A stretch of 64,000 nucleotides of DNA from Stenotrophomonas sp. ZAC14D1_NAIMI4_1 (GTDB taxonomy: Bacteria > Pseudomonadota > Gammaproteobacteria > Xanthomonadales > Xanthomonadaceae), in the NCBI RefSeq assembly GCF_003086775.1, contig NZ_CP026001.1, positions 2,816,407-2,880,406 on the forward strand, given 5' to 3'. Every line of letters starts with the position of its first letter. Position 1 is the stretch's first letter. The position numbers and the translations under genes were made by a program. This document shows, piece after piece, positions 44,215 through 49,765 of the stretch. The notes under the pieces are model-generated. The model was not told where the DNA came from and did not search any database. It saw only the letters and a list, made by a program, of their open reading frames with translations.

Positions 44215-45878
44215 CCCGCAACGACCCGAGCCGCACCATCATCGCGCCCACCGGCACCACGCTGAACGCCAAGAGCTGGCTGACTGAAGCGCCGCTGCGC
44301 ATGCTGATGAACAACCTGCACCCGGACGTGGCCGAGCGCCCGCAGGAACTGGTGGTTTACGGCGGCATCGGCCGCGCCGCGCGCGACTGGGAAAGCTTTG
44401 ACGCCATCGTCGAAACGCTCAAGCGCCTGGACGACGACCAGACCCTGCTGGTGCAGTCGGGCAAGCCAGTGGGCGTGTTCCGCACCCACGCCGATGCACC
44501 GCGCGTGCTGATCGCCAATTCCAACCTGGTGCCGCGCTGGGCCAACTGGGACCACTTCAACGAGCTGGATAAGAAGGGCCTGGCCATGTACGGCCAGATG
44601 ACCGCTGGCAGCTGGATCTACATCGGCGCGCAGGGCATCGTGCAGGGCACCTACGAAACCTTCGTGGAAATGGGCCGCCAGCACTTCAGTGGCGACCTGA
44701 CCGGCAAGTGGCTGTTCACCGGTGGCCTGGGTGGCATGGGTGGCGCACAGCCGCTGGCCGCGGTGATGGCCGGCGCATCCTGCCTGGCCGTGGAGTGCCG
44801 CAAGAGCAGCATCGACATGCGCCTGCGCACCGGCTACCTGGACACCTGGACCGACAACCTGGACGAAGCGCTGCGCCTGATCGACGAAGCCTGCAAGGCC
44901 GGCACGCCGAAGTCGGTGGGCCTGCTGGGCAACGTGGCCGACGTGCTGGCTGAACTGCTGGAGCGCGGCATCCAGCCCGACCTGCTGACCGACCAGACCT
45001 CCGCGCACGACCCTGTGAACGGCTACCTGCCGCAGGGCTGGACCGTCGAGCAGTGGGACGAGAAGCGTGTCTCTGCGCCGAAGGAAGTGGAAAAGGCCGC
45101 GCGCGCCTCGATGGCCAACCACATCCGCGCCATGCTCGGTTTCCACGCACTGGGCGTGCCCACCGTGGATTACGGCAACAACCTGCGGCAGATGGCGCTG
45201 GAAGAAGGCGTGGCCAATGCCTTCGATTTCCCGGGCTTCGTGCCGGCCTACATCCGCCCGCTGTTCTGCCGTGGCATCGGCCCGTTCCGCTGGGCCGCAC
45301 TGAGCGGCGACCCGGAAGACATCGCCAAGACCGATGCCAAGGTGAAGGAACTAATTCCGGACAACCCGCACCTGCACCGCTGGCTGGACATGGCTGCCGA
45401 GAAGATCAAGTTCCAGGGCCTGCCCGCGCGTATCTGCTGGGTGGGCCTGGGTGATCGCGATCGACTCGGCCTCGCCTTCAACGAGATGGTCGCCAACGGC
45501 GAACTGAAGGCGCCGGTGGTGATTGGCCGTGACCACCTGGACAGCGGCAGCGTGGCCTCGCCGAACCGCGAAACCGAAGCGATGGCCGACGGCTCCGACG
45601 CGGTGTCCGACTGGCCGCTGCTGAATGCCCTGCTCAATACCGCCAGCGGCGCCACCTGGGTGTCGCTGCACCACGGCGGTGGCGTCGGCATGGGCTTCTC
45701 GCAGCACGCCGGCATGGTGATCGTCTGCGACGGCACCGAGGCGGCGGCGAAGCGGATTGGCCGCGTGCTGTGGAACGACCCGGCCACCGGCGTGATGCGC
45801 CATGCGGATGCCGGGTATGAGATCGCGGTGGAATGCGCGAAGGAGAAGGGGCTGGATCTGCCGGGGATTCTGAGCTAG
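44211..45878 (+). CDS. hutU: Urocanate hydratase
   Basis: 555 aa NAD-dependent enzyme that converts urocanate to imidazolonepropionate. Signatures: [59 protein letters not shown] and the conserved Cys region near [20 protein letters not shown]. It is the last gene of the hut operon, overlapping hutG by four bases. Immediately downstream the composition becomes AT-rich where the reverse-transcriptase module is inserted. Confidence 0.97.
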
Positions 45879-46106
45879 AGCTACACCACTTCGAATCTCA
45901 ATGATGGGGACAAATGAACTCAGCCGTTGCTGCTATTCACAATGCTTTGGGGGCAGACAATTCGCTACGATCCATTGGTAACAGGTCATGCACATGTTCA
46001 TCAATGAACCAAATAGGTGGCAATACCGCGATATACGGCGCAAGCTAAACCAACCCAACCTTTCCGGCAGCCTCAAAGACAACGGACGAACGTAGGGAAT
46101 CACGAC

Positions 46107-47363
46107 ATGCATCGCTCGGGTTTGATCGCACACAACATTAGGAAGGAAGTTCGAAGGATCGACTTTTTTCTCGAACCGCACCTGAAAGACCCCGAGCATC
46201 TGTCCCAATCAATTGAAGATGCAGTCCAACTCTTGGCAGCACCATCGAAGCTCTCGTCCAAGATTGCTTATGCCCACTCGGGCGGAAAGTCCGTTGCTCG
46301 AGCGACTGACCACGCCTCAACCATAGCCCTCAGAATGCTTAATCGAGGACTGCATGACAAACATCGAGTGCCGGGCAATCGAGACGATATCGTACTCGCG
46401 CTAAAGGCCGTGATTTCGGAACAAGTCCCTTTCTTGATTATAAAGCTGGATGTCAAGAGCTTCTATGAATCCTTTACAGCCGACTATGTTTTGAACCACT
46501 TGGTCGGTAGTAGAACAATTTCCTCCAGCACCAGAATCGCGATCAAATCCATTATTGACAACCATGTAGTCCTTGGCAACTCGGGGTTGCCCCGTGGACT
46601 CGTGATAAGCCCAACCTTGGCCGATTCCATGATGCGTGAATTTGACGCGCAACTGCACTCGAACCCGAAGGTCTTTTTCTACAGGCGTTTTGTAGACGAC
46701 ATCGTCGTCATCATGAACTCCGGGGCGAACAGCTCAGTATCCATTTCAGAGTTCGAGACCGTCCTTCCGAACGGACTGCAGTTCAAGGAAACAAAAAAGA
46801 CCGTCCTTGCATTTGAAAAATGCAAGCCAAAAGAAAATGCAACCGGAAAGGCAACCAAGTTTCTATCATTTAACTATCTTGGATACGCATTTCACTGTGC
46901 CAACGCTGATCACAACTACCGTGCCGACCAGACACGTGACGTTTGGCTCGATATCGCAGAGAGCAAGATCACTAGAACAAAGACTCGGCTGATGAAGTCA
47001 TACGTAGATTTCATTAGGACATCTGATTTCGACTTATTGGAACGCCGAGTTCGACACCTGACGAGCAACATTAGTCTCCGAGATAGAAGCAAAGGAATCA
47101 CTAGACTTTCGGGAATACACTTCAATTACCCTCTAATCGACTTGGAGAGGAGCAAAGCCCTCCCCGAGCTCGACAGATTCCTTAGAAACACGCTCCATTC
47201 GACCAAAGGTCGCATCTTCTCGAAGTTGTCGAGCAAGCTGTCCTCATCTCAGAGAGCTCAACTGTTGCGCCACAGCTTCTATTCGGGAGCAAGGTTTAAA
47301 CGCTTTTACCAATTCAATCCAAAAGAGCTGGCGCGAATCCAGAGGTGCTGGAAACATGAGTGA
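46107..47363 (+). CDS. drt3a: Reverse transcriptase Drt3a-like (DRT3 anti-phage system, UG3 group)
   Basis: 418 aa. Reverse transcriptase motifs are clear: motif A LIIKLDVKSFYESF (D115), motif B GLPRGLVISPTLAD (160-173), motif C RRFVDDIVVIM (F195-V-D197-D198) and the motif D/E region NYLGYAF. There is no maturase, HNH or retron partner. The gene overlaps a second, distinct reverse transcriptase by eight bases; a tandem pair of unequal RTs is the DRT3 (UG3 + UG8) architecture known to protect against phages. The start at 46107 has AGGGA eight bases upstream; an upstream in-frame ATG (46017) lacks one. AT-rich codon use differs from flanking hut genes, showing transfer. Confidence 0.82.
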   Translation: MHRSGLIAHNIRKEVRRIDFFLEPHLKDPEHLSQSIEDAVQLLAAPSKLSSKIAYAHSGGKSVARATDHASTIALRMLNRGLHDKHRVPGNRDDIVLALKAVISEQVPFLIIKLDVKSFYESFTADYVLNHLVGSRTISSSTRIAIKSIIDNHVVLGNSGLPRGLVISPTLADSMMREFDAQLHSNPKVFFYRRFVDDIVVIMNSGANSSVSISEFETVLPNGLQFKETKKTVLAFEKCKPKENATGKATKFLSFNYLGYAFHCANADHNYRADQTRDVWLDIAESKITRTKTRLMKSYVDFIRTSDFDLLERRVRHLTSNISLRDRSKGITRLSGIHFNYPLIDLERSKALPELDRFLRNTLHSTKGRIFSKLSSKLSSSQRAQLLRHSFYSGARFKRFYQFNPKELARIQRCWKHE

Positions 47364-49338
47364 AAAGACCAGAGTCAAGGTGCGGAAGTCCGATAAGTTT
47401 AGATCACTTGTAACGGAAACCTCTCCCGCCGAGACGCCAATTGTCTTCTCGAACGACGGCCTCTACCTGCGCGCAATCAAGAACAGCTCCACTTCTACCG
47501 GCTTATCAGAAAGCGTCTTCGACAAGCTAATAAAGCAGGAGGGACAGGACCTTTGGCACATCCCATATTCCTACAAAATCAAGAAGAACGCGCTATCACA
47601 CCGACAGCTATCGGTTCCTCACCCTGGATCACAGTGGAGGATGATGGATTTTTATAGTAAATACTCTCCGCTCATTACAAACTACACTAGCCGAAGCACA
47701 TCGAGTCTCAGGGCACCAAAATCAATAGCCGGATCGTACTTCACAAGATCCAATGGAGAGGGTGTGTCTCGTTACAAGAGATCACAGGTATCAATCGACA
47801 CCCTGGACAAGCATCTTTCCCACAGCCCCTCCTACTTCTCGTATTTCGGCCATGGCAGGCTTTACAAATTCTTTGATTCCAAGGAGTTCATTGAACTAGA
47901 GCGCCGACATTCACACCTATGGATGCTGGATGTCGCAAAGTGCTTTGACAGCATTTACACGCATACAATCCTTTGGGCAGTAAAAAGCAAAGAGTTCTCC
48001 AAAGAAAATATCAGACTTAATTCTTTCGGAAATGCGTTTGACGCGCTCATGCAGAGCTCAAACTTCGGCGAGACCAGCGGGATATTGATCGGACCAGAAG
48101 TAAGTCGAATATTTGCAGAGATAATACTTCAACAGGTCGACGTTAGAGTAAAATCAAAACTCCAAACTCAAAATTTAGTGGACCGGGTTGATTTTGAAAT
48201 TCGGCGGTATGTCGACGACTATTTCATATTTGCGAACGACCCCAGCGTTTCACGACGCGTATTTGCAGAAATCGAGTCCGAACTCACATTACTCAAACTG
48301 AGCGTGAACGACAGCAAGGTCCGCAAATACGAACGCCCTTTCATGACCGAGAAGTCGAAATCAATACTCGACTCGAAGTCCTTGCTTTCAGCATTTGTCA
48401 GCAAGTTCACCAAGAAGACCAAGGCAAACTCAAATGGTCTCCGCTCAACCACAATTTACAAGCATGACCGCCTCTTCCTCAGTTTCTGCAATGACGTGAA
48501 GTCTTGCTGCTCGACGAACGAATGCGGGTATGACGAGGTCTCCGGATACCTCATTTCAGGCTTGAAGAATCGTGCAATCTACCTCATGGACTCATACCCA
48601 GAGGAATTCAACACAAATAAAGGTGACGAAAAAGAACTTACGCATGACACATATGAAGCTCTCGCCCTAATCATAAAATGCGTATTTTTCCTATACAGTG
48701 TCGCCCCTTCCGTTACCGCGTCGTATAAAATTTCCATGCTGATTGTAGTGATCAGCCGATTCTCGAAGCAACACCTTCCCCAGTATGCGCAAGCGCTTTC
48801 GACCGCACTACTTGGTGAAGCGACGGTCGCGATAGATCGATCAGTGATTGAGCCACGCACAGACGGCTTTATTGATTTGGAGACCCAGAACATTCTCCTT
48901 GCCGTTAGCGAGTTCAGCGACGAACTTAGCATCAGCCCAAAAACACTAGAGAAGGCGTTTATTAACCCCAGCCGCCCCGCCTCTTATTTCAATCTAGTGT
49001 CCGCCATTTACTACATCAAATCGGGACCAACCTTTTCAACCCTTAGAAAATGGGTGTGCGACGGCGTCGACGATATACTCAGCCGATCAACCAGCTTCAC
49101 CAAGGACTCCGAGAAGGCACTCACTGCATTGGATTTCATTGGATGTCCACACCTAGATATCCAGCGCCGCCTAAGCTGGGCCAAGTCCCTGCTGAGTGCC
49201 CTGGATCTTCCATCAACTGATCCAGCGGCTTTGGCCGAACTAGTTAAGGACTTCGAATCTCTACCATGGTTTGTTGACTGGAGAGAGATCGACCTCCTCA
49301 ACCTCCTTGAGAGGAAGGAGTTGCGCGTCGTTTACTGA
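47356..49338 (+). CDS. drt3b: Reverse transcriptase Drt3b-like (DRT3 anti-phage system, UG8 group)
   Basis: 660 aa. RT motifs: A LWMLDVAKCFDSIYTH (D192), B-like SGILIGPEVSRIFAEI (241-256), C IRRYVDDYFIFAN (Y285-V-D287-D288). The C-terminal ~300 residues, after the polymerase, are mostly helical and unrecognised, similar in layout to the helical extensions of DRT/Abi-type RTs. The gene overlaps the first RT by eight bases, so both are coexpressed. A structured RNA-like element follows directly. In DRT3 both RTs and a noncoding RNA are required for defence; that this locus is active is inferred. AT-rich codon use supports recent acquisition. Confidence 0.82.
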   Translation: MSEKTRVKVRKSDKFRSLVTETSPAETPIVFSNDGLYLRAIKNSSTSTGLSESVFDKLIKQEGQDLWHIPYSYKIKKNALSHRQLSVPHPGSQWRMMDFYSKYSPLITNYTSRSTSSLRAPKSIAGSYFTRSNGEGVSRYKRSQVSIDTLDKHLSHSPSYFSYFGHGRLYKFFDSKEFIELERRHSHLWMLDVAKCFDSIYTHTILWAVKSKEFSKENIRLNSFGNAFDALMQSSNFGETSGILIGPEVSRIFAEIILQQVDVRVKSKLQTQNLVDRVDFEIRRYVDDYFIFANDPSVSRRVFAEIESELTLLKLSVNDSKVRKYERPFMTEKSKSILDSKSLLSAFVSKFTKKTKANSNGLRSTTIYKHDRLFLSFCNDVKSCCSTNECGYDEVSGYLISGLKNRAIYLMDSYPEEFNTNKGDEKELTHDTYEALALIIKCVFFLYSVAPSVTASYKISMLIVVISRFSKQHLPQYAQALSTALLGEATVAIDRSVIEPRTDGFIDLETQNILLAVSEFSDELSISPKTLEKAFINPSRPASYFNLVSAIYYIKSGPTFSTLRKWVCDGVDDILSRSTSFTKDSEKALTALDFIGCPHLDIQRRLSWAKSLLSALDLPSTDPAALAELVKDFESLPWFVDWREIDLLNLLERKELRVVY

Positions 49339-49340
49339 TT

Positions 49341-49480
49341 GTGCAAGGATTCATTGACGGCGGGGTGGCCAATAGGCTTTGTCGGATTTCTCTACTGCGG
49401 CGCATGGTTTCTGTGCTCCGGAGGGCGGCATTCGTGCCGCACACACTATTGAGATGAGGCCACCCCACCGTCTTGCAGAT
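49341..49480 (+). ncRNA. Candidate DRT3 noncoding RNA with exposed ACACAC
   Basis: Immediately after drt3b lies an ordered fold. Outer helix: TGCAAG (49342-49347) with CTTGCA (49472-49477), then GACGGCGGGGTGGCC (49356-49370) with GGCCACCCCACCGTC (49458-49472), 14 of 15 pairs. Next helix: AATAG (49371-49375) with CTATT (49446-49450). Inside are GCGCA/TGTGC and a perfect GCGGCA-TTCG-TGCCGC hairpin (49425-49440). The stretch ACACAC (49441-49446) sits between that hairpin and the AATAG/CTATT helix, largely unpaired, where a template could be read. Exact ends are not determined. The rest, to 49765, has no gene apart from the likely promoter of the receptor. Confidence 0.68.
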
Positions 49481-49765
49481 CTCCCATGATGATCTGACTC
49501 TCAGTCTGAGATTCCTTTCCCTGTTAACTTCAGCGATTTCTCTCATCCGATCGACCGGTGCTGGTGCTCACCACTTCCCGACGACCCGGCTGAAGCTGCG
49601 TACGGCAATCATCTATCAGCGATGCCCAATTGACGCCACTGTCCCGGCGCACCCCGACGTACAGGGTGACGACGCGGGTGCAACCTGTTAACTTGCGCGA
49701 CCTCATTGCGGTTGACAGGGCATGACCTGCCATCCGCGGCCCCGTTCCGCCTTGATGTCAGACGC

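Follow-up and report, generated by a model that had tools for sequence, protein, structure and literature searches.

Two adjacent reverse transcriptase genes, drt3a and drt3b, and a structured element directly 3' of the second occupy the plus strand of the stretch of DNA analysed here, which is 64 kb long and is referred to as the window. Both genes are full length and their reading frames overlap by 8 bases; the core of the RNA element starts 17 nt past the end of the drt3b stop codon, on the same strand. The cassette is situated between a gene ending at 45878, which we take to encode urocanate hydratase, and a gene starting near 49706. The G+C content of the reverse transcriptase gene pair is 48%, as compared with 65% for the window. 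The features of the locus are listed in Table 1.

Table 1. Features of the drt3a-drt3b locus and of the RNA element 3' of drt3b (window coordinates)
Feature	Position	Strand	Remarks
drt3a	46107..47363	+	418 aa reverse transcriptase; NF041747, PADLOC and PDB matches
drt3b	47356..49338	+	660 aa reverse transcriptase; NF041748 and PDB matches
Core of DRT3 noncoding RNA	49355..49475	+	sole match of the held-out model R1 in 64 kb and in the genome
P1 closing helix, 5' strand	49356..49370	+	GACGGCGGGGTGGCC; pairs with 49458-49472; covariation in 15 loci
AATA adjoining P1	49371..49374	+	conserved; the one exception among 15 aligned rows is AAGA
Possible P2 5' strand, TCTC	49389..49392	+	partner GAGA 49451-49454; from minimum-energy fold; uncertain
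Inner stem-loop, multi-branch region	49396..49423	+	from minimum-energy fold; putative
Template-proximal hairpin GCGGCA-TTCG-TGCCGC	49425..49440	+	perfect; pair probability 0.69-1.0
ACACAC, likely Drt3a template	49441..49446	+	conserved 3' of drt3b; analogy with E. coli
TGAGG facing AATA, continuing into P1	49455..49459	+	invariant in 15 aligned rows; motif also used to select those rows
P1 closing helix, 3' strand	49458..49472	+	GGCCACCCCACCGTC; pairs with 49356-49370; covariation in 15 loci

Drt3a scored 323 bits against the NCBIfam equivalog NF041747 (cut-off 200) and matched the PADLOC Drt3a model with an E-value of 1.7e-117; Drt3b, likewise matched by PADLOC, scored 622 bits against NF041748 (cut-off 350). 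Regarding proteins of known structure, residues 59-417 of Drt3a aligned with PDB chain 9z6y_A (Drt3a; E 1e-64) and residues 1-660 of Drt3b with 9z6y_H (E 1.3e-129), the likeness to the DRT3 system of 9z6y/9z6z being one of sequence alone; the match of Drt3b to 26cz_A had an E-value of 9e-86. Structure 9z6y/9z6z, which comprises Drt3a and Drt3b chains of a DRT3 system, is reportedly the subject of a paper by Deng et al. (2026). The active-site motif of Drt3a is FVDD (residues 195-198), a usual form that occurs in 36 of 105 DRT3 loci. Drt3b contains E26, R83, R251, YVDD (residues 285-288) and a C-terminal Y660; according to the alignment with 26cz, read by eye, E26, R83, R251 and Y660 correspond to E22, R71, R241 and Y666 of the E. 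coli protein. Within a Drt3b alignment of 98 rows (the window being represented twice), the position of R251 is Arg in all 98 and that of R83 in 95, that of Y660 is Tyr in 95, that of E26 is Glu in 77 and Asp in 17, and the final Asp of YVDD is replaced by Asn in 7. With both genes and the selector and priming residues present, Drt3a and Drt3b are predicted to belong to a DRT3 defence system. The top-scoring named relatives of this Drt3b are from Stenotrophomonas and Xanthomonas.

The upstream flank of the cassette was matched in 29 congener loci. Four of these (L133, L134, L136 and L145) have the downstream flank only 121-212 nt away, as compared with approximately 3.8 kb in the window, and in one (L135) it is approximately 1.2 kb away; for 24 of the 29, the fetched stretch, which measured only 91 and 181 nt in two cases, contained no match to the downstream flank. 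The cassette (45879-49660), with its lower G+C content, occupies the site at which the flanks are nearly joined in those four loci. Across the genus, 2 of 91 genomes have a Drt3b above the cut-off, and across the family 4 of 395, the window's own genome being included in both counts. Low G+C content, close flanks in congeners and patchy occurrence fit a horizontally acquired defence cassette. A megablast search of 45850-49760 against E. coli genomes, a mode that needs near identity, yielded no match, and none of the nine phage records examined matched 80% of Drt3b. Within the literature collection searched there was no paper pairing DRT3 with Stenotrophomonas and none pairing it with Snodgrassella.

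The element 3' of drt3b was originally predicted to be a candidate template RNA with several helices and an exposed ACACAC, and all of its pieces are present on the plus strand as described. The closing helix P1 forms the predicted 14 of 15 pairs (lone mismatch C49361 x A49467). A 6-bp helix proposed outside it, TGCAAG (49342-49347) with CTTGCA (49472-49477), is indeed complementary, but it shares C49472 with P1 and is skipped by both minimum-energy folds. The perfect hairpin was found as stated, and the first base of ACACAC follows it directly. The hexamer is, as proposed, mostly unpaired (probability 0.61-0.95 per base), although a further helix of the original prediction, AATAG (49371-49375) with CTATT (49446-49450), would occupy its last C. 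This helix was rejected: it is complementary, but its ensemble probability is 0.17, and among the relatives it shows no both-side changes and 42.6% paired cells, compared with 43.5% in shuffles. AATA itself is probably single-stranded.

Regarding P2, the second helix of the related RNAs, the ensemble of the window holds no strong candidate: TCTC/GAGA reaches pair probabilities of 0.22-0.25, and the homologous position offers only CUU/GAG with a probability of 0.03; AATAG/CTATT, counted as a third option, stays at the 0.17 given above. The spacing between AATA and TCTC (14 bases, 49375-49388) is longer than in the aligned relatives, three of which (L015, L016 and L022) have a CTCTAC motif 2-6 bases past AATA. 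A tiny hairpin, GGC-TTT-GTC, may form within 49375-49388.

Compared with shuffled sequences, the fold of 49330-49500 had a z-score of -2.6 on the plus strand (3 of 200 shuffles as good) and of -3.4 on the minus strand (none of 200), and the single-sequence fold of the plus strand is thus only moderately unusual. ACACAC occurs eight times on the plus strand of the window, so that its presence by itself means little. Because the evidence from the single sequence is not decisive, the case rests on comparison among loci; it is conservation and covariation, rather than the fold, that bear out the view that the arrangement is unlikely to have arisen by chance. A search of 45879-49760 against Rfam 15 gave no matches at E ≤1.

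Further DRT3 loci were collected with a 40-sequence Drt3b alignment as the query: the best 80 of 332 loci from genome contigs, 20 from viral contigs, and a remainder taken from whole genomes and plasmids. Out of 110 sources examined, six (L055, L062, L082, L106, L108 and L158) were set aside because Drt3b was unmatched at its end, and 104 were kept, including the window. Of the 104 loci, 99 carry ACACAC no more than 250 nt 3' of drt3b; with the limit set at 400 nt the count rises to 101 (median offset 142, range 24-366). Antisense GTGTGT occurs in 2 of the 104 over the 250 nt downstream. Comparison alone, including the best 80 of the 332 contig loci, thereby places the template 3' of drt3b in 101 of 104 loci. 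When eight near-identical stretches were removed, ACACAC lay within 200 nt in 83 of 96, and an earlier count over 250 nt gave 91 of 96 rows as against 5.5 expected from dinucleotide shuffles (the window being counted twice, as itself and as L001). The loci that bear ACACAC span what we take to be Pseudomonadota, Bacteroidota and Acidobacteriota. A location of the RNA upstream of drt3a was considered and discarded, since ACACAC occurred in only 4 of 92 upstream stretches of 250 nt.

In 64 of 90 loci a perfect hairpin whose arm has at least 4 pairs ends at ACACAC, whereas 39 would be expected for anchors placed at random within these stretches; with at least 6 pairs required, the corresponding numbers were 25 observed and 10 expected. 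The hairpin at ACACAC is therefore enriched, but not universal under such strict criteria. Complementarity of the flanks of ACACAC was only moderate per locus, with 34 of 86 loci beating all 60 of their shuffles (median z -2.5).

A motif search yielded 18 rows with TGAGG soon after ACACAC, 15 of which were aligned (set A2); L001 (the window itself) and L031 and L101 (near-copies of L030 and L022) were left out. The conservation of AATA is not independent evidence, because the aligned rows were anchored by it, and the motifs used for selection and anchoring overlap just the two innermost, near-invariant pairs of P1, the covarying pairs being located outside them. Compensatory changes, which the original prediction had proposed to look for in other DRT3 loci, were strong in P1: 10 of the 12 counted pairs changed on both sides and 90.6% of the cells were paired. 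The corresponding values for P2 were 3 of 4 pairs and 85.0%, which amounts to both-side changes in 13 of 16 pairs overall. The covariation score of P1 and P2 was 0.706, as compared with 0.252 (sd 0.028) in shuffled alignments, none of 500 being as high, and with a maximum of 0.227 for slid partners. To judge from these substitutions, the closing helix P1 is under selection; a covarying secondary structure of the DRT3 noncoding RNA is present in the window's relatives, and the window's own P2 appears weak. The middle of the RNA is highly variable among loci.

Twelve other DRT3 loci, the window not among them, went into the covariance model R1; relative to A2, set A3 and R1 omit the window, L045 for its length and L092 as nearly a copy of L091. 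In the window R1 gave a single match up to E 10, at 49355-49475 on the plus strand (28.6 bits, E 5.6e-5), and in the whole genome the same single match up to E 1 (E 0.004), which together with P1 and the conserved hexamer upholds the reading as a DRT3 template RNA and gives no indication of an RNA encoded elsewhere. Of the 92 further DRT3 loci, 78 were searched with R1, and three of these (L050, L057 and L033) were matched at E ≤0.01; weaker matches were to L045 (E 0.16) and to a stretch of L060 inside drt3b (E 0.72). R1 is a subgroup-specific model; in G052, the one further genome of the genus that carries drt3b, the RNA escapes it. Its lack of matches in 198 genomes of the family, obtained with stricter filters, carries no weight, because the window's own copy was missed too.

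The mechanism of DRT3 was published in 2026 for the E. coli system (PMC13174585). The noncoding RNA is encoded in cis, downstream of drt3b, and displays a conserved 5'-ACACAC-3' in a loop that adjoins a stem-loop, from which DRT3a synthesizes poly-(dTdG); mutation of ACACAC abolishes both poly-(dTdG) and defence (PMC13174585). DRT3b alone produces poly-(dCdA) without a nucleic-acid template; Y666 is its primer, and E22 and R241 act as selectors (PMC13174585). The two strands pair to give dsDNA, which RecBCD holds at a low level until the enzyme is blocked by a phage protein such as Gam (PMC13174585). The GT/AC repeat cDNA that the original prediction had mentioned for DRT3 is thus in print for E. 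coli. The window shares with this system (structure 26cz representing its DRT3b) the order drt3a, drt3b and noncoding RNA, the 5'-ACACAC-3' beside a stem-loop, and the selectors and C-terminal Tyr of Drt3b (PMC13174585). It differs in its distant Drt3b and in an RNA of the subgroup with the AATA/TGAGG loop.

Both genes, a covarying RNA architecture, a conserved template and conserved Drt3b residues are observed at the locus. We hold it to be very probable that the element 3' of drt3b serves a complete DRT3 anti-phage system as its noncoding RNA and would present ACACAC to Drt3a, a confidence that covers the explanation as a whole, mechanism included. Since the key residues of Drt3b and the motifs are kept, the E. 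coli mechanism is the best reading for this locus, and it is from the published E. coli system that we infer the chemistry, the resetting on the template, the dsDNA product and the outcome for defence. The RNA would fold into a multi-branched structure closed by the long helix P1 and offer ACACAC, just 3' of the stable hairpin, to Drt3a, of which it is the likely template by analogy. Drt3a would read ACACAC into GTGTGT, and the hairpin on the 5' side of the template would mark the end of copying; the product could then slip back by at least one dinucleotide and be extended again, giving poly(TG). Resetting on the template is put forward as a hypothesis in PMC13174585 as well. Drt3b would start from its C-terminal Tyr660 as primer, select bases through Glu26 and Arg251, and generate poly(CA) without a nucleic-acid template. 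Annealing of poly(TG) and poly(CA) would yield dsDNA that is harmful on build-up, e.g., when a phage blocks RecBCD. The window would accordingly hold a DRT3 system that is complete and whose template RNA can be identified; that one polymerase copies RNA and its partner copies no nucleic acid is remarkable, but this biology is already published. The templates of DRT9 and DRT10 differ from that of DRT3, and we know of no Drt3b-type partner in either. They resemble DRT3 as reverse transcriptases with a template noncoding RNA that directs repeat DNA synthesis (PMC13174585).

The element might also be read as an ordinary 3' UTR, or as an attenuator or terminator of the operon, in which ACACAC is incidental, as its position directly after the last gene and the eight occurrences of the hexamer in the window would allow. 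This is highly improbable in view of the recurrence of ACACAC 3' of drt3b across the presumed phyla named above, the covariation of P1 in 15 loci and the held-out match of R1. A weak scan for promoter- and terminator-like sites found none adjoining the RNA and one of each kind overall, fewer than in shuffles, and the E. coli counterpart is described as a template RNA (PMC13174585). Equally far-fetched is a decayed DRT3 locus with the RNA as its relic: the patchy distribution of DRT3 in the genus would agree with decay, but neither frame is truncated, the active-site, selector and primer residues are in place, P1 retains 14 of its 15 pairs and the template is intact.

The least credible alternative places a functional RNA on the minus strand. 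In the 15-locus alignment P1 and P2 contain 23 G-U/U-G cells, which would be mismatched on the minus strand, as against 10 A-C/C-A cells, mismatched on the plus strand, so that the plus strand is favoured, even though the minus strand folds slightly better relative to its shuffles. Synthesis of poly(TG) needs ACACAC, which is on the plus strand, and the noncoding RNA of E. coli is reported downstream in cis (PMC13174585). The reading as a plus-strand template RNA of DRT3 is therefore retained.

Three of the 104 loci, L026 and L039 (both Snodgrassella) and L152 (same genus as L026), have no ACACAC within 400 nt 3' of drt3b, nor within 1.5 kb downstream. They derive from the 3 of 14 genomes of the Snodgrassella-type genus with Drt3b above the cut-off; L039 is close to L152, which leaves approximately two independent cases. 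All three have a Drt3a with a YVDD motif, and their Drt3b retains the Glu, both Arg, its own YVDD and the terminal Tyr. Alignments of three downstream and of two upstream stretches gave no clear candidate for another template; L026 has one antisense ACACAC upstream of drt3a, which L039 lacks. R1, which misses most other subgroups, found nothing at E 1 in the three genomes, with 150 of the 357-391 candidates per genome scored. That the DRT3 template is not universal, and that these loci rely on another template RNA or on one that has been relocated, is a tentative and rather unlikely suggestion; if true, it would show how an RNA template and a protein-templated partner can drift apart, a matter that concerns the relatives and not the window.

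Some further variation was seen among the Drt3b relatives. At the position of the dATP-selector Glu, L085 (Moraxella caprae) has His and L077 (Desulfospira joergensenii) has Asn, both loci retaining CACACAC; the match of L077 starts late and its alignment is doubtful. In an E. coli plasmid record (L155, 2462-4505), Drt3b is split into two annotated hypothetical proteins, and ACACAC lies 42 nt past its end. Drt3b of L065, L070, L071, L074 and L076 ends in YNPPYSG, the last Tyr being followed by two residues, and in L019, L029 and L040 one residue follows the last Tyr.
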